Origin: Antedon mediterranea
Taxonomy: Eukaryota; Echinodermata; Crinoidea; Comatulida; Antedonidae
Length of the DNA stretch: 64,000 nt
Reading direction: 5' to 3'
Assembly (NCBI RefSeq): GCF_964355755.1
Contig: NC_092680.1
Coordinates: 5,001 to 69,000, forward strand
Part shown: positions 16,501 to 56,084 of the stretch, piece after piece
Position numbering within the stretch: the first letter of the stretch is position 1
Layout: each line of letters begins with the position of its first letter
Program-made: the position numbers and the translations under genes
The notes under the pieces: model-generated
Told to the model about the DNA's origin: nothing
The model's input: the letters and a program-made list of their open reading frames with translations, nothing else
The model's database searches: none

Positions 16501-19500
16501 TTTACAATCCTGTGAGAAGTGACAATTTTAGAACATTGTGTACAAACAACAATTTATGCACACATATTTAAAAAAAATTATTTTAAAGAATTTAATTTTT
16601 AGTGGCGGCCATTTTGAAATCCAAGATGGCCGACAGATTATCGCTTTACATAGTTAGGATTGTATAATGGGTACAGTAATACCATCAAAACGGACTTGTT
16701 CCACATTTATAATTTGTATTATTGTTGATGATATTCTGATTTTTAATAGGGTTATTTGAATGTTGGCGGCCATCTTGAATTTGGTCCTTTAAATGTTTTA
16801 AATGTATTTTTTTTCATTCCTTATATTATCAAGATATGAAATAAAGTCAAAGTTTGCTTTTAACAAAAAATATACACGACATTCATATAAACGACATACC
16901 AGCCTATACTATAGTGTATAATTGAGAGATTGTCAACACGCCTGCTGCAAGGGGTAGTGTATGATTGAGAGATTGTCAACATGCCTGCTGCAAGGGGTAG
17001 TGTATGATTGAGAGATTGTCAACACGCCTGCTGCAAGGGGTAGTGTATGATTGAGAGATTGTCAACATGCCTGCTGCAAGGGGTAGTGTATAATTGAGAG
17101 ATTGTCAACACGCCTGCTGCAAGGGGTAGTGTATGATTGAGAGATTGTCAACATGCCTGCTGCAAGGGGTAGTGTATGATTGAGAGATTGTGAACATGCC
17201 TGCTGCAAGGGGTAGTGTATGATTAAGAGATTGTGAACACGCCTGCTGCAAGGGGTAGTGTATGATTGAGAGATTGTGAACATGCCTGCTGCAAGGGGTA
17301 GTGCATGATTGAGAGATTGTCAACACGCCTGCTGCAAGGGGTAGTGTATGATTGAGAGATTGTGAACATGCCTGCTGCAAGGGGTAGTGCATGATTGAGA
17401 GATTGTCAACACGCCTGCTGCAAGGGGTAGTGTATGATTGAGAGATTGTGAACATGCCTGCTGCAAGGGGTAGTACATGATTGAGAGATTGTCAACACGC
17501 CTGCTGCAAGGGGTAGAGTATGATTGAGAGATGGTGAACATGCCTGCTGCAAGGGGTAGCGCATGATTGAGAGATTGTCAACACGCCTGCTGCAAGGGGT
17601 AGAGCATGATTGAGAGATTGTCAACACGCCTGCTGCTAGGGGTAGTGCATGATTGAGAGATTGTGAACATGCCTGCTGCAAGAGGTAGTGCATGATTGAG
17701 ACATTGTCAACACGCCTGCTGCAAGGGGTAATGTATGATTGAGAGATTGTGAACATGCCTGCTGCAAGGGGTAGAGTATGATTGAGAGATTGTCAACACG
17801 CCTGCTGCAAGGAGTAGTGTATAATTGAGAGATGGTGAACATGCCTGGTGCAAGGCGTAGTGCATGATTGAGAGATTGTCAACACGCCTGCTGCAAGGGG
17901 TAGTGCATGATTGAGAGATTGTCAACACGCCTGCTGCAAGGGGTAATGTATGATTGAGAGATTGTGAACATGCCTGCTGCAAGGGGTAGAGTATGATTGA
18001 GAGATTGTCAACACGCCTGCTGCAAGGGGTAGTGTATGATTGAGAGATTGTGAACATGCCTGCTGCAAGGGGTAGTGTATAATTGAGAGATTGTGAACAT
18101 GCCTGCTGCAAGGGGTAGTGCAAGATTGAGAGATTGTCAACACGCCTGCTGCAAGGGGTAGTGTATGATTGAGAGATTGTGAACATGCCTGCTGCAAGGG
18201 GTAGTGCATGATTGAGAGATTTCCAACACGCCTGCTGCAAGTGGTAAAGAGAAAATAATATCTTGTTTTACATCACCTTTTGAACTTTCTTTGTTCTTCG
18301 TATTGCTTGAACTTCTGGTTCCCCTTCAAAACAATCCCCGGAATGGCGTCGCCTGATTGGAGGCGGACTTCCTCGTTCCTTGGCCAACTGATTCGCTTTA
18401 TCATACAGATCATGTAATTTTGTTTCCACTCCTCGAATAGATTTTGTTATTGTGCGGTGTTCTTTTGTAAGCTCTCTGAAATTAAATTTTTGTTGAAGTA
18501 GTGTTAACATTAATAATATTTTTAAGAACATAATAAAGTAAAATGTTAATAGTTTTGTTAATTTTTAATTGTGTAACATCAAAAATGCTTAATTGTAATT
18601 CACAAATAAAATACTGAATTTGCAAAATTATTTGTTTCTTAAATAACTTACGCAGCATAATCGAGCCACTGGTCCTGCATGGCTGTTGTTTCCTGTAATT
18701 GGTCCAAGAAACGTTTACGATGACGTATACCTGATGCACCAACCGTCTTAGCCATCACACCAGCCAGATGTATTGAAGAAGGAACCAAACGAGGGCGTTG
18801 CAATAAATCTCTACCTTTTAGCCCTAAAATATGACAATGGAAATTATATTTTAGTGTCATTAATACATTTATGTATTAAGGGATAGGAAATAAGATGTAA
18901 TCAATACAATAAATAGTTTTGCTTTCTCTATAGTGTCGTTAATACGATAGGATATAATCAATACAATAAATAGTTTTGCTTTCTCTATAGTGTCGTTAAT
19001 ACATTTACAGTATGTATTAAGGGATAGGATATAAGATGTAATCAATACAATAAATAGTTTTGCTTTCTCTATAGTGTCATTAATACATTTATGTATTAAG
19101 GGATAGGATATAAGATGTAATCAATACAATAAATAGTTTTGCTTTCTCTATAGTGTCATTAATACATTTATGTATTAAGGGATAGGATATAGGATATAAT
19201 CAATACAATAAATAGTTTTGCTTTCTCTATAGTGTCATTAATATATTTATGTATTAAGGGATAGGATATAGGATGTAATCAATACAATAAATAGTTTTGC
19301 TTTCTCTATAGTGTCATTAATACATTTATGTATTAAGGGATAGGATATAAGATGTAATCAATACAATAAATAGTTTTGCTTTCTCTATAGGGTCGTTAAT
19401 ATATTTATGTATTAAGGGATAGGAAATAGGATGTAATCAATACAATAAATAGTTTTGCTTTCTCTATAGTGTCATTAATACATTTATGTATTAAGGGATA

Positions 19501-26481: not shown

Positions 26482-26583
26482 CTCTCGCTCTATCGACGAT
26501 CTAGAGAAAGAGTGTACCCATCGTTGCCAGAGATAAAATTTGAATTATGCCGCCTTAATAAATACCAGATTGGGCCAAATAAT

Positions 26584-29005
26584 GAGGTATATTCAGAGAG
26601 CGTCATTTCGACGATCGAGCATTCTCTACTTCTACGGAGCGCCATTTATGCCTTTATTTACTTATATAGAAATAGTACTACGGTAGCTGCTCCAGTGGAC
26701 CAAATTTAGCACTAGTGGAGCGCAGTGTGATATAAAATAGAAATAAGTCACTGAATTTTAATATCTTTTCGTATGTTAATACACTGTGCTCAAGTGAACC
26801 CAATTTGGATCCAGTGGAGCACAGTGATATAAAATAGAAATAAGTCACTAAATTTTAATATCTTTTCGTATGTTAATACACTGTGCTCAAGTGGACAAAA
26901 TTTGGAGCCAATGGAGCACAGTGATATAAAATAGAAAAAAGTCACTGACTTTTAACATCTTTTCGTATGTTAATAAACTGTGCTCAAGTGGACCCAATTT
27001 TGAGCCAGTGGAGCACAGTGATATAAAATAGAAAAAAGTCACTGAATTTTAATATCATTTCGTATGTTAATACACTGTGCTCAAGTGGACCCAATTTGGC
27101 GAAAGGAGAGCACAGTGATATAAAATATAGAAATAAGTCATTGAATGTTAATATATTTTCGTATGTTAATACGCTGTGCTCGAGTGGACCTAATTTGGCG
27201 CCAGTGGAGCACAGTGATATAAAATATGGAAAAAGTCACTGAATTTTAATATCTTTTCGTATTTAATATACACTATGCTCAAGTGGACCCGATTTGGAGC
27301 CAGGGGAGCACTGTGATATAAAATAGAAATAAGTCACTGAATTTTAATATCTTTTCGTATGTTAATACACTGTGCTTACGTGGACCCAATTTGGCGCGCG
27401 CGCCAGTGAGCACAGTAATATAAAATAGAAAAAAATCACTAAATTTTAATATCTTTTCGTATGTTAATACACTGTGCTCAAGTGGACCCAATTTGGCACC
27501 AATGGGAGCACAGGGAAATAGTCACATACAAAAACATCGAGAAAAAATACTTCTGGAATTTAAAAATATTCAAACTTGGTATATATGTTCAATATCGGTT
27601 ACTCAATCCGTAAACCAAAAGAAAAAATAGTTTCAAGCCACATCAGTGATTTTAATAACTTGCGTTCGCTTAAGATAATACTTATGAAAAAACATACAAT
27701 TCCGACACATATTATGTTAAACTCTAATAATGATTTTGACAACAACAAAAACGGTTAGGAATTCGAATTTTTCCCTGTAAATTGAGCAACTTAAATAAAA
27801 AATATACCAAGAAATATATATTGAAATCAAGGAGTATTTTTTTTGTACAAAAGAAATGTTCGTATGTTAATACACTGTGCTCCAGTGGATCCAATTTGGC
27901 GCCAGTGGAGCACAGTGTATTGAAATACGAAAAGATATTATAATTTAGTGACTTTTTTCTATTTTATATCACTGTGTGCTCACTGGCGCGCGCGCCAAAT
28001 TGGGTCCACGTGAGACAGTGTATTAACATACGAAAAGATATTAAAATTCAGTGACAATTATTTCTATTTTATATCACTGTGCTCCACTGGCGCCAAATTA
28101 GGTCCACTTGAGCACAGTGTATTAACATACGAAAAGATGTTAACATTCAGTGACTTATTTCTATTTTATATCACTGTGCTCCACTGGCTCCAAATTGGGT
28201 TCACTTGAGCACAGTGTATTAACATACGAAAAGATATTAAAATTCAGTGACTTTTTTATATTTTATATCACTGTCCTCCACTGGCTCCAAATTGGGTCCA
28301 CATGAGCACAGTGTATTAACATACGAAAAGATATTAAAATTCAGTGACTTTTTTCTATTTTATATCACTGTCCTCCACTGGCTCCAAATTGGGTCCACAT
28401 GAGCACAGTGTATTAACATACGAAAAGATATTAAAATTCAGTGACTTTTCTATTTTATATCACTGCGCTCCCCTGGCTCCAAATTGGGTCGACTTGATCA
28501 CAGTGTATTAACATACAAAAAGATATTCAAATTTGGTGACTTTTTTCTATTTTATATCACTGTGCTCCCCTGCCTCCAAATTGGGTCCACTTGAGCACAG
28601 TGTATTAACATACGAAAAGATACTAAAAATCATTGACTTATTTCTATTTTATATAAATGTGCTCTCCTGGCTCCAAATTGGGTCCACTTGAGCAGTGTTA
28701 TTAACATACGAAAAGATATTAAAATTCAGTGACTTATTTCTATTTTATATCACTGTGCTCCTCACTGGCGCCAAATTGTGTCCACTTGAGCACAGTGTAT
28801 TTACATACGAAAAGATATTAAAATTAGTGACTTATTTCTATTTTATATCACTGTGCTCCACCGGTGCTAAATTTGGTCCACTGGAGCAGTTACCGTAGTA
28901 CTATTTCTAATTCGGAAGTAAATAAAGGCATAAATGGCGCTCCTTAGAAGTAAATAGTGAAGTAGAGAATGCTCGATCGTCGAAATGACGCTCTGAATAT
29001 ACCTC
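26584..29005. mobile_element. 2.4-kb foldback element made of 97-bp units
   Basis: Inverted ends GAGGTATATTCAGAG...CTCTGAATATACCTC, each continuing into GCGTCATTTCGACGATCGAG. They are flanked by an exact AAATAAT at 26577-26583 and 29006-29012. The left arm (about 26700-27515) holds about eight, and the right arm (about 27860-28880) about eleven, head-to-head copies of a 97-bp unit containing TTTTCGTATGTTAATACACT and GTGGACCCAATTTGG. A unique AT-rich core lies at about 27520-27860. No transposase, so it is non-autonomous. Confidence 0.88.
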
Positions 29006-29012
29006 AAATAAT

Positions 29013-30169: not shown

Positions 30170-30178
30170 TTGACTGAT
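30170..30178. repeat. Left 9-bp target-site duplication of the giant foldback
   Basis: TTGACTGAT directly abuts the element's GCTTGTGTCAAGC end and is repeated at 46946-46954. Confidence 0.92.
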
Positions 30179-30345
30179 GCTTGTGTCAAGCTAGCCAACA
30201 ATAAGCCAGCCAACAATAAGCCAGCCCACTTTTATTTTTTCCAGCCAACAATAACTATGAAACGCCGTTTGTGCATTCTTTACATTTTCATTGTTACTTA
30301 TGGCTTTTATGGTATTAGGAATTAAATATTTGTGAGAAAAACGGC
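30179..30345. repeat. Left terminal inverted repeat of the giant foldback
   Basis: It begins GCTTGTGTCAAGCTAGCC and has three GCCAACAATAA motifs, then ATGGTATTAGGAATTAAATA before the first repeat unit. By eye it is identical to the reverse complement of 46779-46945. Confidence 0.92.
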
Positions 30346-33300
30346 GGATTGTTCCTGGGATTCACTAGGTGGGATTATACTAGGGTACCCCCTTAGTCGT
30401 CCAGTATAAGTTAGAGTGGGACCAATGGTGCCGTTTACTCAGCCCTCATCTTTAAAATTTGAGTGTAACTCAATTACAATTTTTAAAATATAGTTATATT
30501 TGAAACTGTATTTGTGAGAAAATGGCGGATTGTTCCTGGGAGTCACTTGGTGGGATTATACTAGGGTACCCCCTTAGTCGTCCAGTATAAGTTAGAGTGC
30601 GACCACTGGTCCCGTTTACACAGCCCTCATCTTTTAAATTTGAGTGTAACTCATTTACGATTAAAAAAATATAGTGAAATTTGATACTGTATTTGTGAGA
30701 AAATGGCGGATTGTTCCTGGGAGTCACTTGGTGGGATTATACTAGGGTACCTCCTTAGTTGTCCAGTATAAGTTAGAGTGGGACCACTGGTTCCGTTTAC
30801 TCAGCCCTCATCTTTAACATTTGAGTGTAACTCATTTACGACTTTAAAATATAGTGAAATTTGATACTGTATTTGTGAGAAAACGGCGGATTGTTCCTGA
30901 GAGTCACTTGGTGGGATTATACTAGGGTGCCTCCTTAGTCGTCCAGTATAAGTTAGAGTGGGACCACTGGTCCCGTTTACTCAGCCCTCATCTTTTAAAT
31001 TTAAGTGTAACTCATTTACGATTTTAAAAATATAGTGAAATTAGATACTGTATTTTTGTGAGAAAACGGCGGATTGTTCCTGGGAGTCACATGGTGGCAT
31101 TATACTAAGGTACGTCCTTAGTCGTCAAGTATAAGTTAGAGTGCGACCACTGGTTCCGTTTACTCAGCCCTCATCTTTTAAATTTGAGTGTAACTCAATT
31201 ACGGTAAAAAAAGTTAAAATATAGTGAAAATTGATACTGTATTTGTGAGAAAATGGCGGATTGTTCCTTGGAGTCACTTGGTGGGATTATACTAGGGTAC
31301 CTCCTTAGTTATCCAGTAGAAGTTAGAGTGGGACCACTGGTCCCGTTTACCCAGCCCTCATCTTTAACGTTTGAGTGTAACTCAATTACGATTAATATTT
31401 TAAAATATAGTGAAATTTGATACTGTATTTGTGAGAAAATGGCGGATTGTTCCCGAGAGTCACTTGGTGGGATTATACTAGGGTACCTCCTTAGTTGTCC
31501 AGTTTAAGTTAGAGTGGGACCACTGTTCCCGTTTACTCAGCCCTTATCTTTAAAATTTGAGTGTAACTCATTTACGATTAATATTTTAAAATATAGTGAA
31601 ATTTGATACTGTATTTGTGAGAAAATGGCGGATTGTTCCTGAGAGCCACTTGGTGGGATTATACTAGGGTACCCCCTTAGTTGTGCAGTATAAGTTAGAG
31701 TGGGACCACTGGTCCCGTTTACTCAGCCCTCATCTTTAAAATTTGAGTGTAACTCATTTACGATTTTTAAAATATAGTAAAATTTGAAACTGTATTTGTG
31801 AGAAAACGGCGGATTGTTCCTGGGAGTCACATTGTGGCATTATACTAAGGTACGTCCTTAGTCGTCCAGTATAAGTTAGAGTGCGACCACTGGTTCCGTT
31901 TACTCAGCCCTCATCTTTTAAATTTGAGTGTAACTCAATTACGGTAAAAAATTTTAAAATATAGTGAAAATTGATACTGTATTTGTGAGAAAATGGCGGA
32001 TTGTTCCTTGGAGTCACTTGGTGGGATTATACTAGGGTACCTCCTTAGTTGTCCAGTAGAGGTTAGAGTGGGACCACTGGTCCCGTTTACTCAGCCCTCA
32101 TCTTTAACGTTTGAGTGTAACTCAATTACGATTAATATTTTAAAATATAGTGAAATTTCATACTGTATTTGTGAGAAAATGGCGGATTGTTCCTGGGAGC
32201 CACTTGGTGGGATTATACTAGGGTACCCCCTTAGTTGTGCAGTATAAGTTAGAGTGGGACCACTGGTCCCGTTTACTCAGCCCTCATCTTTAAAATTTGA
32301 ATGTAACTCATTTACGATTTTTAAAATATAGTAAAATTTGAAACTGTATTTGTGAGAAAACGGCGGATTGTTCCTGAGAGTCACTTGGTGGGATTATACT
32401 AGGGTACCTCCTTAGTTGTCCAGTATAAGTTAGAGTGGGACCACTGGTCCCGTTTACTCAGCCCTCATCTTTAAAATTTGAGTGTAACTCATTTACGATT
32501 TTTAAAATATAGTGAAATTTGATACTGTGTTTGTGAGAAAACGGCGGATTGTTCCTGAAAGTCACTTGGTGGGATTATACTAGGGTACCCCCTTAGTCGT
32601 CCAGTATAGGTTAGAGTGGGACCACTGGTCCCGTTTACTGAGCCCTCATCTTTTAAATTTGAGTGTAACTCAATTACGGTAAAAAAATTTAAAATATAGT
32701 GAAAATTGATACTGTATTTGTGAGAAAATGGCGGATTGTTCCTTGGAGTCACTTGGTGGGATTATACTAGGGTACCTCCTTAGTTGTCCAGTAGAAGTTA
32801 GAGTGGGACCACTGGTCCCGTTTACCCAGCCCTCATCTTTAACGTTTGAGTGTAACTCAATTACGATTAATATTTTAAAATATAGTGAAATTTGATACTG
32901 TATTTGTGAGAAAATGGCGGATTGTTCCCGAGAGTCACTTGGTGGGATTATACTAGGGTACCTCCTTAGTTGTCCAGTTTAAGTTAGAGTGGGACCACTG
33001 TTCCCGTTTACTCAGCCCTTATCTTTAAAATTTGAGTGTAACTCATTTACGATTAATATTTTAAAATATAGTGAAATTTGATACTGTATTTGTGAGAAAA
33101 TGGCGGATTGTTCCTGAGAGCCACTTGGTGGGATTATACTAGAGTACCCCCTTAGTTGTGCAGTATAAGTTAGAGTGGGACCACTGGTCCCGTTTACTCA
33201 GCCCTCATCTTTAAAATTTGAGTGTAACTCATTTACGATTTTTAAAATATAGTAAAATTTGAAACTGTATTTGTGAAAAAACGGCGAATTGTTCCTGGGA

Positions 33301-36300
33301 GTCACATTGTGGCATTATACTAAGGTACGTCCTTAGTCGTCCAGTATAAGTTAGAGTGCGACCACTGGTTCCGTTTACTCAGCCCTCATCTTTTAAATTT
33401 GAGTGTAACTCAATTACGGTAAAAAAATTTAAAATATAGTGAAAATTGATACTGTATTTGTGAGAAAATGGCGGATTGTTCCTTGGAGTCACTTGGTGGG
33501 ATTATACTAGGGTACCTCCTTAGTTGTCCAGTAGAGGTTAGAGTGGGACCACTGGTCCCGTTTACTCAGCCCTCATCTTTAACGTTTGAGTGTAACTCAA
33601 TTACGATTAATATTTTAAAATATAGTGAAATTTCATACTGTATTTGTGAGAAAATGGCGGATTGTTCCTGGGAGCCACTTGGTAGGATTATACTAGGGTA
33701 CCCCCCTTAGTTGTGCAGTATAAGTTAGAGTGGGACCACTGGTCCCGTTTACTCAGCCCTCATCTTTAAAATTTGAATGTAACTCATTTACGATTTTTAA
33801 AATATAGTAAAATTTGAAACTGTATTTGTGAGAAAACGGCGGATTGTTCCTCAGAGTCACTTGGTGGGATTATACTAGGGTACCTCCTTAGTTGTCCAGT
33901 ATAAGTTAGAGTGGGACCACTGGTCCCGTTTACTCAGCCCTCATCTTTAAAATTTGAGTGTAACTCATTTACGATTTTTAAAATATAGTGAAATTTGATA
34001 CTGTATTTGTGAGAAAACGGCGGATTGTTCCTGAAAGTCACTTGGTGGGATTATACTAGGGTACCCCCTTAGTCGTCCAGTATAAGTTAGAGTGGGACCA
34101 CTGGTCCCGTTTACTGAGCCCTCATCTTTTAAATTTGAGTGTAACTCATTTACGATTTTTAAAATATAGTAAAATTTGATACTGTATTTGTGAGAAAATG
34201 GCGGATTGTTCCTGGGAGCCACTTGGTGGGATTATACTAGCGTACCTCCTTAGTTGTCCAGTTTAAGTTAGAGTGGGACCACTGGTCCCGTTTACTCAAC
34301 CCTTATCTTAAAAATTTGAGTGTAACTCAATTACGAATAATATTTTAAAATATAGTGAAATTTGATACTGTATTTGTGAGAAAATGGCGGATTGTTCCTG
34401 GGAGTCACTTGGTGGGATTATACTAGGGTACCCCCTTAGTCGTCCAGTATAAGTTAGAGTGCGACCAATGGTCCCGTTTACTCAGCCCTCATCTTTAAAA
34501 TTTGAGTGTAACTCATTTACGATTTTTAAAATATAGTGAATTTTGAAACTGTATTTGTGAGAAAACGGCGGATTGTTCCTGAGATTCACTTGGTGGGATT
34601 ATACTAGGGTACACCCTTAGTCGTCCAGTATAAGTTAGAGTGGGACCACTGGTCCCGTTTACCCAGCCCTCATCTTTAACGTTTGAGTGTAACTCAATTA
34701 CGATTAATATTTTAAAATATAGTGAAATTTGATACTGTATTTGTGAGAAAATGGCGGATTGTTCCCGAGAGTCACTTGGTGGGATTATACTAGGGTACCT
34801 CCTTAGTTGTCCAGTTTAAGTTAGAGTGGGACCACTGTTCCCGTTTACTCAGCCCTTATCTTTAAAATTTGAGTGTAACTCATTTACGATTAATATTTTA
34901 AAATATAGTGAAATTTGATACTGTATTTGTGAGAAAATGGCGGATTGTTCCTGAGAGCCACTTGGTGGGATTATACTAGGGTACCCCCTTAGTTGTGCAG
35001 TATAAGTTAGAGTGGGACCACTGGTCCCGTTTACTCTGCCCTCATTTTTAAAATTTGAGTGTAACTCATTTACGATTTTTAAAATATAGTAAAATTTGAA
35101 ACTGTATTTGTGAAAAAAAGGCGGATTGTTCCTGGGAGTCACATTGTGGCATTATACTAAGGTACGTCCTTAGTCGTCCAGTATAAGTTAGAGTGCGACC
35201 ACTGGTTCCGTTTACTCAGCCCTCATCTTTTAAATTTGAGTGTAACTCAATTACGGTAAAAAAATTTAAAATATAGTGAAAATTGATACTGTATTTGTGA
35301 GAAAATGGCGGATTGTTCCTTGGAGTCACTTGGTGGGATTATACTAGGGTACCTCCTTAGTTGTCCAGTAGAGGTTAGAGTGGGACCACTGGTCCCGTTT
35401 ACTCAGCCCTCATCTTTAACCTTTGAGTGTAACTCAATTACGATTAATATTTTAAAATATAGTGAAATTTCATACTGTATTTGTGAGAAAATGGCGGATT
35501 GTTCCTGGGAGCCACTTGGTGGGATTATACTAGGGTACCCCCTTAGTTGTGCAGTATAAGTTAGAGTGGGACCACTGGTCCCGTTTACTCAGCCCTCATC
35601 TTTAAAATTTGAATGTAACTCATTTACGATTTTTAAAATATAGTAAAATTTGAAACTGTATTTGTGAGAAAACGGCGGATTGTTCCTGAGAGTCACTTGG
35701 TGGGATTATACTAGGGTACCTCCTTAGTTGTCCAGTATAAGTTAGAGTGGGACCACTGGTCCCGTTTACTCAGCCCTCATCTTTAAAATTTGAGTGTAAC
35801 TCATTTACGATTTTTAAAATATAGTGAAATTTGATACTGTATTTGTGAGAAAACGGCGGATTGTTCCTGAAAGTCACTTGGTGGGATTATACTAGGGTAC
35901 CCCCTTAGTCGTCCAGTATAAGTTAGAGTGGGACCACTGGTCCCGTTTACTGAGCCCTCATCTTTTAAATTTGAGTGTAACTCATTTACGATTTTTAAAA
36001 TATAGTAAAATTTGATACTGTATTTGTGAGAAAATGGCGGATTGTTCCTGGGAGCCACTTGGTGGGATTATACTAGCGTACCTCCTTAGTTGTCCAGTTT
36101 AAGTTAGAGTGGGACCACTGGTCCCGTTTACTCAACCCTTATCTTAAAAATTTGAGTGTAACTCAATTACGAATAATATTTTAAAATATAGTGAAATTTG
36201 ATACTGTATTTGTGAGAAAATGGCGGATTGTTCCTGGGAGTCACTTGGTGGGATTATACTAGGGTACCCCCTTAGTCGTCCAGTATAAGTTAGAGTGCGA

Positions 36301-38932
36301 CCAATGGTCCCGTTTACTCAGCCCTCATCTTTAAAATTTGAGTGTAACTCATTTACGATTTTTAAAATATAGTGAATTTTGAAACTGTATTTGTGAGAAA
36401 ACGGCGGATTGTTCCTGAGATTCACTTGGTGGGATTATACTAGGGTACACCCTTAGTCGTCCAGTATAAGTTAGAGTGGGACCACTGGTCCCGTTTACCC
36501 AGCCCTCATCTTTAACGTTTGAGTGTAACTCAATTACGATTAATATTTTAAAATATAGTGAAATTTGATACTGTATTTGTGAGAAAATGGCGGATTGTTC
36601 CCGAGAGTCACTTGGTGGGATTATACTAGGGTACCTCCTTAGTTGTCCAGTTTAAGTTAGAGTGGGACCACTGTTCCCGTTTACTCAGCCCTTATCTTTA
36701 AAATTTGAGTGTAACTCATTTACGATTAATATTTTAAAATATAGTGAAATTTGATACTGTATTTGTGAGAAAATGGCGGATTGTTCCTGAGAGCCACTTG
36801 GTGGGATTATACTAGGGTACCCCCTTAGTTGTGCAGTATAAGTTAGAGTGGGACCACTGGTCCCATTTACTCAGCCCTCATCTTTAAAATTTGAGTGTAA
36901 CTCATTTACGATTTTTAAAATATAGTAAAATTTGAAACTGTATTTGTGAAAAAACGGCGGATTGTTCCTGGGAGTCACATTGTGGCATTATACTAAGGTA
37001 CGTCCTTAGTCGTCCAGTATAATTTAGAGTGCGACCACTGGTTCCGTTTACTCAGCCCTCATCTTTTAAATTTGAGTGTAACTCAATTACGGTAAAAAAA
37101 TTTAAAATATAGTGAAAATTGATACTGTATTTGTGAGAAAATGGCGGATTGTTCCTTGGAGTCACTTGGTGGGATTATACTAGGGTACCTCCTTAGTTGT
37201 CCAGTAGAGGTTAGAGTGGGACCACTGGTCCCGTTTACTCAGCCCTCATCTTTAACGTTTGAGTGTAACTCAATTACGATTAATAATTTAAAATATAGTG
37301 AAATTTCATACTGTATTTGTGAGAAAATGGCGGATTGTTCCTGGGAGCCACTTGGTGGGATTATACTAGGGTACCCCTTTAGTTGTGCAGTATAAGTTAG
37401 AGTGGGACCACTGGTCCCGTTTACTCAGCCCTCATCTTTAAAATTTGAATGTAACTCATTTACGATTTTTAAAATATAGTAAAATTTGAAACTGTATTTG
37501 TGAGAAAACGGCGGATTGTTCCTGAGAGTCACTTGGTGGGATTATACTAGGGTACCTCCTTAGTTGTCCAGTATAAGTTAGAGTGGGACCACTGGTCCCG
37601 TTTACTCAGCCCTCATCTTTAAAATTTGAGTGTAACTCATTTACGATTTTTAAAATATAGTGAAATTTGATACTGTATTTGTGAGAAAACGGCGGATTGT
37701 TCCTGAAAGTCACTTGGTGGGATTATACTAGGGTACCCCCTTAGTCGTCCAGTATAAGTTAGAGTGGGACCACTGGTCCCGTTTACTGAGCCCTCATCTT
37801 TTAAATTTGAGTGTAACTCATTTACGATTTTTAAAATATAGTAAAATTTGATACTGTATTTGTGAGAAAATGGCGGATTGTTCCTGGGAGCCACTTGGTG
37901 GGATTATACTAGTGTACCTCCTTAGTTGTCCAGTTTAAGTTAGAGTGGGACCACTGGTCCCGTTTACTCAACCCTTATCTTAAAAATTTGAGTGTAACTC
38001 AATTACGAATAATATTTTAAAATATAGTGAAATTTGATACTGTATTTGTGAGAAAATGGCGGATTGTTCCTGGGAGTCACTTGGTGGGATTATACTAGGG
38101 TACCCCCTTAGTCGTCCAGTATAAGTTAGAGTTCGACCAATGGTCCCGTTTACTCAGCCCTCATCTTTAAAATTTGAGTGTAACTCATTTACGATTTTTA
38201 AAATATAGTGAATTTTGAAACTGTATTTGTGAGAAAACGGCGGATTGTTCCTGAGATTCACTTGGTGGGATTATACTAGGGTACACCCTTAGTCGTACAG
38301 TATAAGTTAGAGTGGGACCACTGGTCCCGTTTACTCAGCCCTCATCTTTAAAATTTGAGTGTGACTCATTTACGATTTAAAAAATATAGTGAAATTTGAT
38401 ACTTTATTTGTGAGAAACTGGCGGATTGTTCCTGGGAGTCACTTGGTGGGATTATACTAGGGTACCTCCTTAGTTGTCCAGTATAAGTTAGAGTGGGACC
38501 ACTGGTCCCGTTTACTCAGCCCTCATCTTTAAAATTTGAGTGTAACTCATTTACGATTTTTAAAATATAGTGAAATTTGATACTGTATTTGTGAGAAAAC
38601 GGCGGATTGTTCCTGAGAGTCACTTGGTGGGATTATACTAGGGTACCTCCTTAGTTGTCCAGTATAAGTTAGAGTGGGACCACTGGTCCCGTTTACTCAG
38701 CCCTCATCTTTAAAATTTGAGTGTAACACATTTACGATTTTTAAAATATAGTGAAATTTGAAACTGTATTTGTGAAAAAACGGCGGATTGTTCCTGAGAG
38801 TCACTTGGTGGGATTATACTAGGGTACCTCCTTGTTCGTCCAGTAAAGGTTAGAGTGGTACCACTGGTTCCGTTTACTCAGCCCTCATCTTTAAAATTTG
38901 AGTGTAACTCATTTACGATTTTTAAAATATAG
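30346..38932. repeat. Left arm: 183-bp satellite with 10-unit higher-order repeat
   Basis: About 47 direct copies of the 183-bp unit, including variants with an AATGGCGG or AACGGCGG start. One distinctive unit (CCAGTAGAGGTTAGAGTGGG) recurs near 32055, 33530, 35367 and 37203, spacings of 1475, 1837 and 1836 bp. That is eight, ten and ten units. Confidence 0.92.
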
Positions 38933-38962
38933 TGAAATTTGTACCAGTGGTCCCACTCTAAA
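38933..38962. other. Central loop of the giant foldback
   Basis: The left arm runs TTTACGATTTTTAAAATATAG up to 38932 and its inverse starts at 38963 (CTATATTTTTAAAATCGTAAA). Only about 30 nt separate them, so the axis of symmetry lies near 38948. Confidence 0.85.
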
Positions 38963-41900
38963 CTATATTTTTAAAATCGTAAATGAGTTACACTCAAATT
39001 TTAAAGATGAGGGTAAACGGGACCAGTGGTCCCACTCTAACTTATACTGGACGACTAAGGGGGTACCCTAGTATAATCCCACCAAGTGACTCCAAGGAAC
39101 AATCCGCCATTTTCTCACAAATACAGTATCAATTTTCACTATATTTTAAAATGTTTATCGTAATTGAGTTACACTTAAATTTAAAAGATGAGGGCTGAGT
39201 AAACGGAACCAGTGGTACCACTATAACTTTTACTGGACGACTAAGGAGGTACCCTAGTATAATCCCACCAAGTGACTCCCCGGAACAATCCGCCATTTTC
39301 TCACAAATACAGTTTCAAATTTAACTATATTTTAAAAATTGTAATTGAGTTACACTCAAATTTTTAAGATGAGAAGGCTGAGTAAACGGGACCAGTGGTC
39401 CCACTCTAACTTATACTGGACAACTAAGGAGGTACCCTAGTATAATCCCACCAAGTGACTCCCAGGAACAATCCGCCATTTTCTCACAAATACAGTATCA
39501 AATGTCACTATATTTTTTAAATCGTAAATGAGTTACACTCGAATTTAAAAGATGAGGGCTGAGTAAACGGGACCAGTGGTCCCACTCTAATTTAGACTGG
39601 ACGACTAAGGAGGTACCTTAGTATAATCCCACCAAGTGACTCCCAGGAACAATCCGCCATTTTCTCACAAATACAGTTTCAAATTTAACTATATTTTAAA
39701 AATCGTAATTGAGTTACACTCAAATTTTAAAGATGAGGGCTGAGTAAACGGGACCAGTGGTCCCACTCTAACTTATACAGGATGACTAAAGAGGTACCCT
39801 AGTATAATCCCACCAAGTGAATCTCAAGAACAATCCGCCGTTTTCTCACAAATACAGTATCAAATTTCACTATATTTTTTAAATCGTAAATGCGTTACAC
39901 TCAAATTTAAAAGATGAGGGCTGAGTAAACGGGACCAGTGGTCCCACTCTAACTTATACAGGATGACTAAAGAGGTACCCTAGTATAATCCCACCAAGTG
40001 ACTCTCAGGAACAATCCGCCATTTTCTCACAAATACAGTATCAATTTTCACTATATTTTAAATATTTTTATCGTAATTGAGTTACACTCAAATTTAAAAG
40101 ATGAGGGCTGAGTAAACGGAACCAGTGGTCGCACTCTAACTTATACTGGACGACTAAGGACGTACCTTAGTATAATCCCACCATGTGACTCCCAGGAAAA
40201 ATCCGCCGTTTTCTCACAAATACAGTATCTAATTTCTCTATATTTTAAAAATCGTAAATGAGTTACACTCAAATTTAAAAGATGAGGGCTGAGTAAACGG
40301 GACCAGTGGTCCCACTCTAACTTATACTGGACGACTAAGGAGGCACCCTAGTATAATCCCACCAAGTGACTCTCAGGAACAATCCGCCGTTTTCTCACAA
40401 ATACAGTATCAAATTTCACTATATTTTAAAAATCGTAAATGAGTTACACTCAAATTTAAAAGATGAGGGCTGAGTAAACGGGACCAGTGGTACCACTCTA
40501 ACTTTTACTGGACGACTAAGGAGGTACCCTAGTATAATCCCACCAAGTGACTCTCAGGAACAATCCGCCGTTTTCTCACAAATACAGTATCAAATTTCAC
40601 TATATTTTAAAAATCGTAAATGAGTTACACTCAAATTTTAAAGATTAGGGCTGAGTTAACGGGACCAGTGGTCCCACTCTAACTTATACTGGACAACTAA
40701 GGAGGTACTCTAGTATAATCCCACCAAGTGACTCCCAGGAACAATCCGCCATTTTCTCACAAATACAGTATCAAATTTCACTATATTTTTTAAATCGTAA
40801 ATGAGTTACACTCAAATTTAAAAGATGAGGGCTGAGTAAACGGTACCAGTGGTCCCACTCTAACTTATACTGTACGACTAAGGAGGCACCCTAGTATAAT
40901 CCCACCAAGTGAATCTCAGGAACAATCCGCCGTTTTCTCACAAATACAGTTTCAAATTTCACTATATTTTAAAAATCGTAAATGAGTTACACTCAAATTT
41001 TAAAGATGAGGGCTGAGTAAACGGAAACAGTGGTCCCACTCTAACTTATACTGGACGACTAAGGGGGTACCCTAGTATAATCCCACCAAGTGACTGCCAG
41101 GAACAATCCGCCATTTTCTCACAAATACAGTATCAAATTTCACTATATTTTAAAATATTAATCGTAATTGAGTTACACTCAAATTTTAAAGATAAGGGCT
41201 GAGTAAACGGGACCAGTGGTCCCACTCTAACTTAAACTTGACAACTAAGGAGGTACCCTAGTATAATCCCACCAAGTGACTCCCGGGAACAATCCGCCAT
41301 TTTCTCACAAATACAGTATCAAATTTCACTATATTTTAAAAATCGTAAATGAGTTAAACTCAAATTTTAAAGATGAGGACTGAGTAAACGGGACCAGTGG
41401 TCCCACTCTAACTTATACTGGACAACTAAGGAGGTACCCTAGTATAATCCCACCAAGTGACTCCCAGGAACAATCCGCCATTTTTTCACAAATACAGTAT
41501 CAAATTTCACTATATTTTTTAAATCGTAAATGAGTTACACTCAAATTTAAAAGATGAGGGCTGAGTAAACGGTACCAGTGGTCCCACTCTAACTTATACT
41601 GTACGACTAAGGAGGCACCCTAGTATAATCCCACCAAGTGACTGCCAAGAACAATCCGCCATTTTCTCACAAATACAGTATCAAATTTCACTATATTTTA
41701 AAATATTAATCGTAATTGAGTTACACTCAAATTTTAAAGATAAGTGCTGAGTAAACGGGACCAGTGGTCCCACTCTAACTTAAACTGGACAACTAAGGAG
41801 GTACCCTAGTATAATCCCACCAAGTGACTCCCGGGAACAATCCGCCATTTTCTCACAAATACAGTATCAAATTTCACTATATTTTAAAATATTAATCGTA

Positions 41901-44900
41901 ATTGAGTTACACTCAAACGTTAAAGATGAGGGCTGAGTAAACGGAACCAGTGGTCCCACTCTAACTTCTACTGGACAACTAAGTAGGTACCCTAGTATAA
42001 TCCCACCAAGTGACTCCCAGGAACAATCCGCCATTTTCTCACAAATACAGTATCAATTTTCACTATATTTTAAATATTTTTATCGTAATTGAGTTACACT
42101 CAAATTTAAAAGATGAGGGCTGAGTAAACGGAACCAGTGGTCGCACTCTAACTTATACTGGACGACTAAGGACGTACCTTAGTATAATCCCACCATGTGA
42201 CTCCCAGGAAAAATCCGCCGTTTTCTCACAAATACAGTATCTAATTTCTCTATATTTTTAAAATCGTAAATGAGTTACACTCAAATTTAAAAGATGAGGG
42301 CTGAGTAAACGGGACCAGTGGTCCCACTCTAACTTATATTGGACGACTAAGGAGGCACCCTAGTATAATCCCACAAAGTGACTCTCAGGAACAATCCGCC
42401 GTTTTCTCACAAATACAGTATCAAATTTCACTATATTTTAAAAATCGTAAATGAGTTACACTCAAATTTAAAAGATGAGGGCTGAGTAAACGGGACCAGT
42501 GGTACCACTCTAACTTTTACTGGACGACTAAGGAGGTACCCTAGTATAATCCCACCAAGTGACTCTCAGGAACAATCCGCCGTTTTCTCACAAATACAGT
42601 ATCAAATTTCACTATATTTTAAAAATCGTAAATGAGTTACACTCAAATTTTAAAGATTAGGGCTGAGTTAACGGGACCAGTGGTCCCACTCTAACTTATA
42701 CTGGACAACTAAGGAGGTACTCTAGTATAATCCCACCAAGTGACTCCCAGGAACAATCCGCCATTTTCTCACAAATACAGTATCAAATTTCACTATATTT
42801 TTTAAATCGTAAATGAGTTACACTCAAATTTAAAAGATGAGGGCTGAGTAAACGGTACCAGTGGTCCCACTCTAACTTATACTGTACGACTAAGGAGGCA
42901 CCCTAGTATAATCCCACCAAGTGAATCTCAGGAACAATCCGCCGTTTTCTCACAAATACAGTTTCAAATTTCACTATATTTTAAAAATCGTAAATGAGTT
43001 ACACTCAAATTTTAAAGATGAGGGCTGAGTAAACGGAAACAGTGGTCCCACTCTAACTTATACTGGACGACTAAGGGGGTACCCTAGTATAATCCCACCA
43101 AGTGACTGCCAGGAACAATCCGCCATTTTCTCACAAATACAGTATCAAATTTCACTATATTTTAAAATATTAATCGTAATTGAGTTACACTCAAATTTTA
43201 AAGATAAGGGCTGAGTAAACGGGACCAGTGGTCCCACTCTAACTTAAACTTGACAACTAAGGAGGTACCCTAGTATAATCCCACCAAGTGACTCCCGGGA
43301 ACAATCCGCCATTTTCTCACAAATACAGTATCAAATTTCACTATATTTTAAAAATCGTAAATGAGTTAAACTCAAATTTTAAAGATGAGGGCTGAGTAAA
43401 CGGGACCAGTGGTCCCACTCTAACTTATACTGGACAACTAAGGAGGTACCCTAGTATAATCCCACCAAGTGACTCCCAGGAACAATCCGCCATTTTTTCA
43501 CAAATACAGTATCAAATTTCACTATATTTTTTAAATCGTAAATGAGTTACACTCAAATTTAAAAGATGAGGGCTGAGTAAACGGTACCAGTGGTCCCACT
43601 CTAACTTATACTGTACGACTAAGGAGGCACCCTAGTATAATCCCACCAAGTGACTGCCAAGAACAATCCGCCATTTTCTCACAAATACAGTATCAAATTT
43701 CACTATATTTTAAAATATTAATCGTAATTGAGTTACACTCAAATTTTAAAGATAAGTGCTGAGTAAACGGGACCAGTGGTCCCACTCTAACTTAAACTGG
43801 ACAACTAAGGAGGTACCCTAGTATAATCCCACCAAGTGACTCCCGGGAACAATCCGCCATTTTCTCACAAATACAGTATCAAATTTCACTATATTTTAAA
43901 ATATTAATCGTAATTGAGTTACACTCAAACGTTAAAGATGAGGGCTGAGTAAACGGAACCAGTGGTCCCACTCTAACTTCTACTGGACAACTAAGTAGGT
44001 ACCCTAGTATAATCCCACCAAGTGACTCCCAGGAACAATCCGCCATTTTCTCACAAATACAGTATCAATTTTCACTATATTTTAAATATTTTTATCGTAA
44101 TTGAGTTACACTCAAATTTAAAAGATGAGGGCTGAGTAAACGGAACCAGTGGTCGCACTCTAACTTATACTGGACGACTAAGGACGTACCTTAGTATAAT
44201 CCCACCATGTGACTCCCAGGAAAAATCCGCCGTTTTCTCACAAATACAGTATCTAATTTCTCTATATTTTTAAAATCGTAAATGAGTTACACTCAAATTT
44301 AAAAGATGAGGGCTGAGTAAACGGGACCAGTGGTCCCACTCTAACTTATATTGGACGACTAAGGAGGCACCCTAGTATAATCCCACAAAGTGACTCTCAG
44401 GAACAATCCGCCGTTTTCTCACAAATACAGTATCAAATTTCACTATATTTTAAAAATCGTAAATGAGTTACACTCAAATTTAAAAGATGAGGGCTGAGTA
44501 AACGGGACCAGTGGTACCACTCTAACTTTTACTGGACGACTAAGGAGGTACCCTAGTATAATCCCACCAAGTGACTCTCAGGAACAATCCGCCGTTTTCT
44601 CACAAATACAGTATCAAATTTCACTATATTTTAAAAATCGTAAATGAGTTACACTCAAATTTTAAAGATTAGGGCTGAGTTAACGGGACCAGTGGTCCCA
44701 CTCTAACTTATACTGGACAACTAAGGAGGTACTCTAGTATAATCCCACCAAGTGACTCCCAGGAACAATCCGCCATTTTCTCACAAATACAGTATCAAAT
44801 TTCACTATATTTTTTAAATCGTAAATGAGTTACACTCAAATTTAAAAGATGAGGGCTGAGTAAACGGTACCAGTGGTCCCACTCTAACTTATACTGTACG

Positions 44901-46778
44901 ACTAAGGAGGCACCCTAGTATAATCCCACCAAGTGAATCTCAGGAACAATCCGCCGTTTTCTCACAAATACAGTTTCAAATTTCACTATATTTTAAAAAT
45001 CGTAAATGAGTTACACTCAAATTTTAAAGATGAGGGCTGAGTAAACGGAAACAGTGGTCCCACTCTAACTTATACTGGACGACTAAGAGGGTACCCTAGT
45101 ATAATCCCACCAAGTGACTGCCAGGAACAATCCGCCATTTTCTCACAAATACAGTATCAAATTTCACTATATTTTAAAATATTAATCGTAATTGAGTTAC
45201 ACTCAAATTTTAAAGATAAGGGCTGAGTAAACGGGACCAGTGGTCCCACTCTAACTTAAACTGGACAACTAAGGAGGTACCCTAGTATAATCCCACCAAG
45301 TGACTCCCGGGAACAATCCGCCATTTTCTCACAAATACAGTATCAAATTTCACTATATTTTAAAATATTAATCGTAATTGAGTTACACTCAAACGTTAAA
45401 GATGAGGGCTGAGTAAACGGGACCAGTGGTCCCACTCTAACTTCTACTGGACAACTAAGGAGGTACCCTAGTATAATCCCACCAAGTGACTCCCAGGAAC
45501 AATCCGCCATTTTCTCACAAATACAGTATCAATTTTCACTATATTTTAAATATTTTTATCGTAATTGAGTTACACTCAAATTTAAAAGATGAGGGCTGAG
45601 TAAACGGAACCAGTGGTCGCACTCTAACTTATACTGGACGACTAAGGACGTACCTTAGTATAATCCCACCATGTGACTCCCAGGAAAAATCCGCCGTTTT
45701 CTCACAAATACAGTATCTAATTTCTCTATATTTTAAAAATCGTAAATGAGTTACACTCAAATTTAAAAGATGAGGGCTGAGTAAACGGGACCAGTGGTCC
45801 CACTCTAACTTATACTGGACGACTAAGGAGGCACCCTAGTATAATCCCACCAAGTGACTCTCAGGAACAATCCGCCGTTTTCTCACAAATACAGTATCAA
45901 ATTTCACTATATTTTAAAAATCGTAAATGAGTTACACTCAAATTTAAAAGATGAGGGCTGAGTAAACGGGACCAGTGGTCCCACTCTAACTTATACTGGA
46001 TGACTAATGGGGTACCCTAGTATAATCCCACCAAGTGACTCTTAGGAACAATCCGCCGTTTTCTCACAAATACAGTATCAAATTTCACTATATTTTAAAA
46101 ATCGTAAATGATTTACACTCAAATTTTAAAGATGAGGGCTGAGTAAACGGGACCAGTGGTCCCACTCTAACTTATACTGGACAACTAAGAAGGTACCCTA
46201 GTATAATCCCACAAAGTGACTCCCGGGAACAATCCGCCATTTTCTCACAAATACAGTATCAAATTTCACTATATTTTTTAAATCGTAAATGAGTTACACT
46301 CAAATTTAAAAGATGAGGGCTGAGTAAACGGTACCAGTGGTCCCACTCTAACTTATACTGTACGACTAAGGAGGTACCCTAGTATAATCCCACCAAGTGA
46401 CTCCCAGGAACAATCCGCCATTTTCTCACCAATACAGTTTCAAATTTAACTATATTTAAAAAATTGTAATTGAGTTACACTCAAATTTTAAAGATGAGGG
46501 CTGAGTAAACGGGACCAGTGGTCGCACTCTAACTTATACTGGACGTCTAAGGGGGTACCCTAGTATAATCCCACCAAGTGACTCCCAGGAACAATCCGCC
46601 ATTTTCTCACAAATACAGTTTCAAATTTAACTATATTTTAAAAATCGTAATTGAGTTACACTCAAATTTTAAAGATGAGGGCTGAGTAAACGGGACCAGT
46701 GGTCCCACTCTAACTTATACTGGACGACTAAGGGGGTACCCTAGTATAATCCCACCAAGTGAATCCCAGGAACAATCC
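38963..46778. repeat. Right arm: inverted 183-bp satellite with 11-unit higher-order repeat
   Basis: About 43 copies of the same unit, inverted. A distinctive variant (AAGATTAGGGCTGAGTTAAC) recurs at 40641, 42653 and 44665, exactly 2012 bp apart (eleven units). Another variant (AACCAGTGGTCGCACTCTAA) shows two intervals of about 2012 bp and a last, outer interval of about 1462 bp (eight units). Confidence 0.92.
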
Positions 46779-46945
46779 GCCGTTTTTCTCACAAATATTT
46801 AATTCCTAATACCATAAAAGCCATAAGTAACAATGAAAATGTAAAGAATGCACAAACGGCGTTTCATAGTTATTGTTGGCTGGAAAAAATAAAAGTGGGC
46901 TGGCTTATTGTTGGCTGGCTTATTGTTGGCTAGCTTGACACAAGC
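46779..46945. repeat. Right terminal inverted repeat of the giant foldback
   Basis: Mirror of 30179-30345, ending GGCTAGCTTGACACAAGC. I found no mismatch to the left end over this length. Confidence 0.92.
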
Positions 46946-46954
46946 TTGACTGAT
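46946..46954. repeat. Right 9-bp target-site duplication of the giant foldback
   Basis: TTGACTGAT directly follows the element; identical to 30170-30178. Confidence 0.92.
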
Positions 46955-51360: not shown

Positions 51361-54300
51361 TTATTGTTCCATATTTTTGTGAATCCTCTCAAAATGTTGC
51401 ACAAATTCAGAAAACATAATCAATTTGGAACTTTTTATGTTATATTTTCTTAAAATGGTTTCTAGTAATTTCTGTTCTGCAACAGACATTTCACGTTTAT
51501 TTATACGTAATTCTTTTATAACACGTCTAAACTGCGTTAACGGTTTCTTGCGAAAAAATCGTCTGTGGATGTAGTTAAGTGGTAAAAATGGCTTGTCATA
51601 TCTAGTGATGCAAGGTATTTCAACTCCGTAAAAGGACATTTTCACCAGCCTTTGGATTGGCACACCGCCATAGCGTACTTTACTACAACCTGGTAAAACA
51701 GATTGCCTTTTGAAATTGTCTTCTTTTAAGGCTGCTTTCTCATCATCACTTATCTTCGAAAGTTGTTGTTTTCTGTTTTTTTCTTCTGAATTATATTTTC
51801 TAATTAAATCTTTAAACGGATGTACACAAGCAGTTTTCTTCTTCTCAATGTTATTATTATTCAAGTTTGTTAGCGAACTAATTTTATCAGGTTGAAATTT
51901 AGTATTTTCTTGGGAATCACTAGGTAAGTATTGCATATTGGAGTGAATTGAATATTTTCTGTTCGTTTCAATTTGATTAGGAGTTATATTTGGCTTAGTA
52001 ACTTTATTTTGAAAGTTATCCAAACTAGAATGTTTTAATCCCTCCCGAGTTACAATCTCATTGACTTCATGTAAACAAGGTGTTTTATTTATTCCATGGG
52101 TTTTCTGTCGAAATTCCACAATTTCAAAATCGGTTTTGGTTTCAGAATGGTTAGGTATTGCTTCTATAGTGCCTTTATTTTCAGGTTCTTTTACATTGTC
52201 AGAAGTCTCTAGTTCTTCAGACAACTCTTGTGCTGATGAACGGGTACTTTCTATTCCATACTTTGGTTTCTTCAATATACCGTCATTAGAGGTTAATGTC
52301 AAATCTTGCACACGTTTTCTACCATGGTATTTTGGTAGAATCTCGTCATCTGTTTTGTTCTTATTCAATTTGTCTGCAATCGATGCTCTGGTATTTTCTG
52401 TTGATAAGTGAGTTTGATAATCAAAATAAGGCGGTAACTTGTCAGCAATAACTCTTATATTTGGAAAAAAGAGTTTATCAGACTCCTTCTCGTCTAAGAG
52501 TTCACTGACGTCAGCAGGCATATTTGTAGCAGACATATTATGCATTAACGTTGTGAGACAATCACCCTTCTTGTAAAAGAGAACAGGTGAAGATGTCTTA
52601 GTTTCCTTACAATTCATTTTGTTTATAATGGAATAGTCTGCATCCAAAGGTGTTGCTTCTTTACGGAATGTTATCTTTAATTTATTTGTCTTCAATGTTT
52701 GCTTTAATGTGCATGTATATTTTGAGATTGAAAGTTCTTTCGTATTTTTATCATTTAAAACTTCTTTGCAAACAGTAGTTTTTGGTATGCTAGAATTCTT
52801 CAAACACAAACTATTTTCAGGTTTGTCTTGCATGATTTGTACTTTTTCTAATGTTAAATATTTTGAAGAATCCTTGTCAGATTGTTGTATCTGAAGTTGG
52901 TGGTGTATATCATTGGATATGCATGAGGTATGACTTTTTTCACAAGATTTACTGAGCACTAGTTGATTTCCTGGTACATCAGGAGATTTCAAACATTTTT
53001 CATAACTCTGAACTGAATCTAGATGATTTACAGGAGATGTTGCACATTGGTCATCTGCCAACTGATGGACCGGATTGTTGGCACAATGTCTTCCTCCTGT
53101 AATTGGCATAGACTCTTCATGTGACAAGGTCAACGAGGACTGCATAATTTGGTTGTTAGAATAATTTGTAGAGCTTATATTATTACTTGAAGAGATCTCG
53201 TTGGTTTGGTCACTAGCACAGCTTTGATTTGCTGATGTACAATCAGGATTTCTTTGTGTAGAACCCTTTTTTGATTGGTAGATGCTAATGCTTTCCTCAG
53301 AATGAACTGGAATAAGCTCTCTTTCATTCATTCTTTCTTCATAAGGAGATGTTTGCTTCCTTATGTTGGTTTTAATGTATTCACCTGCAGAGGTTTGCAT
53401 TTGATCTTTATGTAGACCTACATTAGGATGTTTCTGATGTGCATTAGGAGATGTCTGTTTTAAATCTCTTGGCATGAAAGGAGAGCAGAGTTTCAAATTG
53501 ACACTGTTGTTACCTTCAGACATTAGAACATTCTCCCTATGTAACATAGTATCAGACCGATTGATCTTGTAGTTGCAATTTGAATATTTATCTGCTGAAA
53601 CTGGCTGTGTATATGGTAAATTATAAGAATCTTGATGACTTTGTGAGTTGGTACAGCTTTCACCTTTAATTCGACATTTGTCTTCAGAAAATATCATTAC
53701 CTCTTTAGTCTGCTTCTGAAAATAGTTTACTATAGACATCTGTACTTGTTTTCTACATGGTACATTCTGCATGTCCAGACACTTCTTTTTATTATCAGTG
53801 GATGTAGAAACTGCCTCAGAAGGTTCTGTTTTAACAGAAACTGTGTTAATGGATTGTGATTTGTGTTCATTTGCAATGCATTGTACTGAATTGGTTAAAA
53901 TCTGTTTTTCAGAGGCATAATTCAAAACTGGCTTCTTTTGCAGAGCAGATATCAATTGGCCTTTCGATTCAGCTGCTTTCTGCACTAAAAGACCTTGTTG
54001 AAATTTCTTGTTTTTGTAATTTGCATAGGTTTCATTTTTATAGTGCACAGACTCATAGTCAAAGGGGCTTGAACAATGTATGGAGTTTTTCTGTTTATGA
54101 ATCGTTGTTAGTTGGTATTTTGAATAGTCACCTTGGTCTGTTCCATATTGCTGCAACTGAAGCAAGCTGTCTGACCTATTTTTGTATACGTTTGAATCAT
54201 CTACAGTTTTTTTATTGTCACTGTCAAAACTATAACACACATTTGGCAGTGCATTAGGTGAATCTTGCACAATTAAATTTTGTGCACACATTTCTGTAGA

Positions 54301-55989: not shown

Positions 55990-56084
55990 TTTGTTCTAGA
56001 TTCTTTTCTGAAAAAGAAAAAAGTTATTATAAAGATTTAGTTTCAGCATTTTTTAATTTGTTTTTTTCTTTTCTTATTTCTTCT

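Follow-up and report, generated by a model that had tools for sequence, protein, structure and literature searches.

Foldback DNA transposons are recognized by long inverted repeats that are themselves composed of tandem repeats, together with a duplication of the target site. The TU elements of sea urchins and the FB elements of Drosophila, for instance, have modular inverted repeats containing tandem repeats, and pairs of FB elements can carry large segments of host DNA. Both of these structural features are present at positions 30170-46954 of a 64,000-nt stretch of the Antedon mediterranea genome (hereafter the window; C11:5001-69000 of a 354-Mb, 18-contig genome). The palindrome found there, which is the subject of this report, is one copy of a family of giant foldback DNA transposons that consist almost entirely of two satellite arrays placed head to head.

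Several described systems are close to it. Rehavkus, a MULE-related group, makes 9-bp target duplications, encodes a PHD finger in its transposase protein and carries a minisatellite before the 3′ inverted repeat; its inverted repeats measure 26-400 bp, and the hosts named are Arthropoda and Annelida only (PMC6446971). Rehavkus-1_TC of Tribolium is a 9.5-kb element with a 164-bp satellite in both inverted termini, in arrays mostly of 5-8 monomers (PMC10218199). Tetris of Drosophila virilis is a foldback with ~220-bp tandem repeats in inverted repeats of up to 1,735 bp, target duplications of 8-10 bp, and a link to satellite DNA, in which arrays of the Tetris unit reach 66 copies; its authors did not find an autonomous copy and considered that larger arrays may disrupt transposition (PMC4079207). 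Tm1 of root-knot nematodes has composite inverted repeats of Mutator/Foldback type, occurs in gene-bearing and gene-less groups, and has a repeat motif of ~14 bp; one element size is given as ~1 kb, and its duplications are commonly 9 bp, with 45 of 53 being 8-10 bp (PMC3169594). In a review of giant elements, DNA transposition is described as declining with cargo above ~6 kb (PMC6431247). These points come from parts of the respective papers, and the comparisons made below extend as far as those parts do.

The window element is best regarded, with a probability of about 0.8, as a non-autonomous member of its family, mobilized in trans and lacking the core that lies between the arms of a gene-bearing relative, the core having probably been lost through a switch between the arms.

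Anatomy of the window element

The element lies exactly between two copies of the 9-bp sequence TTGACTGAT, at 30170 and 46946, which are the sole plus-strand occurrences of that sequence in the window; on the other strand it occurs once, at 9816. The 16,767 bp between the duplications, and the duplications themselves, are arranged as follows.

30170-30178, plus strand: left copy of the 9-bp target duplication TTGACTGAT, an exact match to 46946-46954
30179-30309, plus strand: left terminal domain, 131 bp, non-satellite, starting with GCTTGTGTCAAGC (itself a short inverted repeat); an identical inverted copy lies on the right, and the domain is present at other elements
30188-30226, plus strand: 15-bp repeat AAGCCAGCCAACAAT, 2.6 copies, inside the left terminal domain (Tandem Repeats Finder)
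30327-38941, plus strand: left satellite arm, 47 anchors of 180-187-bp units, with a private 10-unit higher-order period (Tandem Repeats Finder and anchor search)
38942-38961, no strand: tip, the head-to-head meeting of the arms, without payload
38962-46797, minus strand: right satellite arm, 43 anchors, with a private 11-unit higher-order period (Tandem Repeats Finder and anchor search)
46815-46945, minus strand: right terminal domain, the inverted copy of the left one
46946-46954, plus strand: right copy of the 9-bp target duplication, an exact match to the left copy

The original prediction for this locus described an exact 9-bp duplication, identical inverted ends of ~165 bp, and about 90 copies of a 183-bp unit in two head-to-head arms. 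Each of these was borne out: identity of the ends runs through the first 188 bp, and the 47 left and 43 right anchors, spaced at 180-187 bp, total 90. The ~30 nt it placed between the arms proved too wide, as the measured gap is ~1 to 20 nt, depending on the aligner. An ~8-kb single-strand hairpin had also been proposed; the arms are indeed inverted, but perfect pairing is not expected, since the higher-order period is 10 units on the left (8 exact pairs) and 11 on the right (14 exact pairs). The arms are thus not unit-for-unit mirror images, and the hairpin would be an imperfect duplex. Mean unit identity is 0.919 and 0.927 inside the two arms and 0.920 between them. Mirror symmetry of the arms, as hairpin copying would predict, was rejected on these grounds, the arms of one element being not clearly more alike than those of different elements.

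No Rfam match to the window element was obtained at the gathering threshold. The palindromic box GGGACCACTGGTCCC present in each unit was considered as a binding site and set aside: among units of 176-190 bp its conservation is 0.886, below the unit mean of 0.949, and no role is claimed for it for that reason. The longest word common to the end and the unit is 7 bp, which is not meaningful as a shared binding word.

A dispersed family with target duplications

The 165-bp end has matches at no fewer than 40 places in the genome (at least 40, being the best 40 of 105 candidates scored). A 21-bp end pattern, with up to 2 mismatches allowed, matches 78 times and its reversed control 0 times, while the exact 13-bp tip matches 72 times vs 5 for its control; 69 of these 72 are also among the 78. 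Eight of the 78 adjoin the outer sequence of a sister family and lie inside short sister elements. By end sequence the giants fall into two subfamilies, A (AGCCAAC, to which the window element belongs) and B (AGCCGAC), which are 88% alike over 165 bp.

Neighbouring ends in convergent orientation were paired by proximity and their flanks examined, which gave 28 pairs, the window's own among them; the short sister elements L055 and L056, in which the GCTTGTG end is internal, were excluded. Exact 9-bp duplications bracket 19 of the 28 pairs (18 flush with the ends and 1 with a doubled 10-bp stretch of the tip in between). Another 3 pairs have exact duplications of 8 bp, and 4 others match at 8/9 positions. 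In line with the expectation that other copies of the end would be accompanied by 9-bp duplications, 26 of 28 pairs have duplications of 8-9 bp that are exact or one base off. Among 756 mismatched pairings used as a control, the maximum was 7/9, reached by 3. The flush duplications that match at 8 or 9 positions, 22 in number, have no strong base preference.

Measured from end to end, the pairs cover 7.5-33 kb, plus one of 79 kb, with a median of 14.5 kb. That the window element is one transposition unit far longer than usual foldbacks, as had been predicted, is supported by these spans of at least 7.5 kb, mostly with duplications. The two ends of a single element are a median 99.4% identical over 165 bp and exactly identical in 6 of the 27 pairs compared, and the ends of A elements are mutually 97% alike on average.

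Interiors were determined in full for five core-less elements. Besides the window element, these are elements of 7.5 kb on C3, 7.5 kb on C1, 27.3 kb on C10 and 20.9 kb on C4, all four consisting of arms only. The C10 element has 92+58 unit matches (the anchor search, which misses some units, finds 143 where alignment finds 150), and the C4 element has 85 forward matches and 30 reverse. Arm lengths range from 1.8 to 16.6 kb. Two further elements, of 19.4 and 17.7 kb, are pure array at 3/3 sampled points each. No two of the five fully read elements have the tip at the same position in the unit, an indication that the core was lost, or the tip formed, in separate events.

As a separate observation, three short forward unit pieces occur among the reverse matches of the C4 element (~16349-18051 in the coordinates of its joined pieces); the pattern is what a small inversion would give if it had been copied along with a higher-order block.

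Gene-bearing and sister elements

The original prediction called for a gene-bearing relative with GCTTGTGTCAAGC ends and a MULE-type transposase. A gene-bearing relative with these ends exists, and its gene does not match the canonical MULE model. The element at C3:8279859-8313032 is a 33-kb member of subfamily A with an exact 9-bp duplication and ends that are 99.4% alike. Satellite is found at every sampled point of its arms, over kilobases, and between the arms lies a core of 15.7 kb (8289866-8305568). The core contains two open frames, 8298808-8302131 (1,108 codons) and 8302388-8304709 (774 codons), which a GT-AG intron links in frame to yield a predicted protein of 1,822 residues from a methionine at 8298901. 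Pfam matches in this protein are a PHD finger (PF00628; E=1e-5, 25.9 bits vs a cut-off of 24), UCH, a USP-type protease (E=1.7e-20), and Peptidase_C48, a Ulp1-type protease (E=9.8e-19). The best PDB match is SENP1 (E=1.3e-20), and the alignment conserves His, Asp, Gln and Cys, which we take to be the Ulp1 catalytic residues. About ten 39-residue repeats, encoded by a coding array, follow the PHD finger, and the stretch between these repeats and the proteases is a candidate transposase region. PF10551, the MULE transposase family, gave no match in the core protein at E up to 1 (three pieces) or at 0.01 (the repeat piece), and DDE_Tnp_4 gave none in the scanned core pieces. The anatomy is instead Rehavkus-like.

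This gene is the only intact copy of its coding region found in the genome. Decayed relatives occur at C4:12430401-12433564; in addition, C2, C4 and C10 hold distant matches to the transposase-like part, and C11 holds a USP-like one. Relatives of the transposase-like region in viral contigs were sought and none confirmed. The 33-kb element is the probable trans-acting partner of the core-less members.

Other candidate partners were rejected. Canonical MULE transposases are represented by 36 PF10551 matches in the genome, none of them inside any of the 28 paired elements, and at the 3 of these 36 loci inspected with ~2-3 kb on each side there was no inverted repeat like the GCTTGTG end. At four unpaired ends (L057-L060), nothing transposase-like was noticed among the open reading frames (ORFs) listed for L057 and L058 or in the portions of L059 and L060 that were read. 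A 31.5-kb candidate on C7 has non-satellite DNA at four sampled points (23920000-23932000), yielded no protein-search match, and has a right end only 65% like the left.

The longest pair, C6:18981631-19060520, has B arms with 40 and 14 unit matches, ~69 kb apart, and a target duplication (a TGTGTTGTT-like 9-mer) matching at 8/9. In its interior, exons of fibrinogen-C and PAN-type genes lie within a long direct duplication, whose pieces are mostly 87-99% identical. The interior also contains a reverse transcriptase/tyrosine-recombinase element, a further, weak reverse transcriptase match, and a second inverted repeat pair with a 30-bp minisatellite, which abuts the right arm and begins 1.1 kb inside the left. 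This unit may be a foldback carrying host genes or a foldback with later nested insertions.

The sister family consists of short elements of ~1-4 kb with TATGGGCGGCC ends, inside which lie the GCTTGTG end, whole or as its inner part, and as many as 5 satellite units. For example, L055, L056, L078, L080 and L084 have an 18-bp minisatellite in their outer repeats and ~1-5 of the 183-bp units, with the GCTTGTG end in all except L078. The same satellite module is therefore associated with two kinds of ends. Among nine pairs of TATGGGCGGCC ends, exact 6-bp duplications flank seven, an exact 7-bp duplication flanks one, and one matches at 5/6; no 9-bp duplication was found in the symmetric flanks of the internal GCTTGTG ends. 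One of the nine (C9:22664554-22683713, 19 kb) has an exact 6-bp duplication and a Harbinger-type DDE_Tnp_4 ORF, along with a weak Myb-like match below the Pfam cut-off and a Gypsy-type ORF (integrase, RNase H).

Other repeats occur in the window. At 26583-29006 there is a smaller foldback with inverted arrays of a 97-bp unit, GAGGTATATTC ends and a possible 7-bp duplication, AAATAAT. Head-to-head minisatellite arrays of CTGTCTAGA type occupy 1-1599 and turn at ~521, and at 51361-55995, on the minus strand, a 1,544-codon open frame contains a run of near-identical ~28-residue repeats (an 84-bp array).

Origin, mobilization and known systems

In the preferred account, the mobile unit would start with the 131-bp terminal domain and continue into kilobases of the ~183-bp satellite, arranged as inverted copies. 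The transposase, probably the product of the two-exon gene of the 33-kb C3 member, would act in trans, recognizing the GCTTGTGTCAAGC ends and inserting the unit with a 9-bp duplication. Core-less members would have lost the core probably by a switch between inverted arms, for example during repair after excision, a route proposed because the tip junction differs in each fully read element. Large arrays also acquired higher-order duplications of their own. Of this account, the structure of the elements, their dispersal, the target duplications and the intact gene in one member are shown directly, while movement in trans by means of that gene, the way in which the core was lost and any part played by the proteases are inferred. 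A bolder version is tentative and, on balance, doubtful: a single gene-bearing giant would spread palindromes of multi-kb satellite arrays to many chromosomes; by removing ubiquitin and SUMO from host proteins of silencing or repair, its protein would allow palindromes of this size to be excised, repaired and re-inserted; and the arms would sometimes take host genes with them, as in the 79-kb C6 unit around a fibrinogen-related gene cluster.

Several points weigh against the preferred account. One of the 28 pairs matches at only 7/9 and another, with a truncated end, has no duplication. For about half of the satellite units the nearest relative lies within the same element, a share above chance that shows some local growth of arms. 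No shared stretch of >2 units at >=98.5% identity was found between the sampled elements, and the arms are consequently hard to see as straightforward recent copies of a single giant parent, despite nearly identical 165-bp ends. As read from these comparisons, either the arms must turn over faster than the ends, or the ends must be kept alike by selection or conversion. Lastly, neither Pfam nor PDB gave a credible match to the region of the C3 protein between the 39-residue repeats and the proteases, so its assignment as transposase-like draws on its position, the architecture of the protein and its motif pattern.

Alternatively, a short foldback could have inserted with a 9-bp duplication and then expanded its arms at the insertion site through unequal exchange or slippage. 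That arms have grown in place is shown by private higher-order periods of 10, 11, 12, 19 and 35 units over several arms (units of 150-220 bp being used), with 7 of 14 arms holding duplicated runs 6 to 35 units long. It is shown as well by the enrichment of nearest-relative units within one arm, at 0.344 against an expected 0.124 in A and 0.354 against 0.195 in B, and the lack of multi-unit blocks copied between the sampled elements points the same way. As the origin of the long arms, growth in place is nevertheless judged unlikely. All 28 pairs span 7.5 kb or more, and a short pair with two flush GCTTGTG ends was not seen (unpaired ends were examined in part; one of them, L059, is a remnant of <1 kb without a second end). 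The gene-bearing C3 copy, too, has satellite arms extending over kilobases. In addition, once near-duplicates within an arm are removed at 98.5%, units of one arm are on average as alike as units of different elements, at 0.913 vs 0.909 in A (150 units) and 0.931 vs 0.933 in B (160 units), whereas arms that had expanded from one or a few units following insertion would be expected to be far more uniform internally. Unit diversity is therefore older than insertion, and the arms were probably already long when they moved. With respect to position, units equally far from the outer end are more alike than random in B over the first five (0.952-0.960 vs 0.937), and are not in A (0.887-0.924 vs 0.914).

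Two further explanations were considered. In one, the arms belong to the short TATGGGCGGCC-ended elements with 6-7 bp duplications, a Harbinger-type transposase moves all of them, and the 9-bp family is a side branch. The GCTTGTG sequence and satellite units inside short elements would fit this, as would the DDE_Tnp_4 and weak Myb-like ORFs of the 19-kb member. It is highly improbable, however, because the giants are bracketed by flush duplications of 8-9 bp at their GCTTGTG ends, the TATGGGC pairs differ in duplication length, the outer sequence of the short elements does not adjoin the giants' ends examined, and DDE_Tnp_4 matches a separate TATGGGC element but none of the scanned C3 core pieces. 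The other explanation is that the palindrome arose in assembly, or is a satellite array inverted by chance, and is no transposon. Assembly of long palindromic satellite arrays is difficult, and the arm lengths given may not be exact, but an assembly join is very unlikely, to the point of being scarcely credible, because 28 loci share the same ends with different duplications (no cross-pairing exceeding 7/9) and the five fully read elements have five different tips.

Some foldbacks, such as Tetris, have no known transposase, and how they are tied to satellite DNA has yet to be settled. Because arms of dozens of units occur here in elements with mostly exact duplications, and one member has an intact gene, two questions become testable: the size limit of palindromic DNA transposons, and the possible seeding of new satellite arrays along chromosomes by transposition. 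A transposase-like protein that also has deubiquitinase-type and SUMO-protease-type domains suggests one means by which such an element may deal with host silencing or repair. No earlier report of arrays of this size, of core-less giants or of a paired USP and Ulp1 was found in the literature searched, a body of work to which subscription papers and Repbase Reports do not belong. These three features look new, while the foldback kind itself is already known.

Compared with the systems outlined at the outset, the family resembles TU and FB in its modular tandem-repeat inverted repeats and differs from them, going by general description, in sizes and repeat units. The C6 unit, if it does carry host genes, recalls the Ising elements (PMC6431247). 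As in Tm1, there are composite inverted repeats, 9-bp duplications, and both gene-bearing and gene-less members, but the unit is ~183 bp rather than ~14 bp and the elements are far larger than ~1 kb. Tetris is likewise a foldback with satellite arms of tandem repeats and target duplications of comparable length; unlike Tetris, the present family has arms of 1.8-16.6 kb in elements with flush 9-bp duplications, plus a gene-bearing copy. The nearest named kind is Rehavkus, with which the giants share the 9-bp duplication (exact in 19 of 28), a PHD finger, and satellite at the inverted termini, here as 183-bp arms on both sides of the C3 core. As to the inverted repeat, given as 26-400 bp in Rehavkus, the ends here have 131 bp of non-satellite sequence and 188 bp of identity, and the satellite arms carry the inversion on for kilobases. 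A single arm can have 92 unit matches, as opposed to mostly 5-8 monomers in Rehavkus-1_TC, and core-less giants and a USP and Ulp1 pair are not mentioned for Rehavkus in the parts consulted. Since PF10551 is not matched and the likeness is one of anatomy, the family is filed as Rehavkus-like and not as a proven Rehavkus member.

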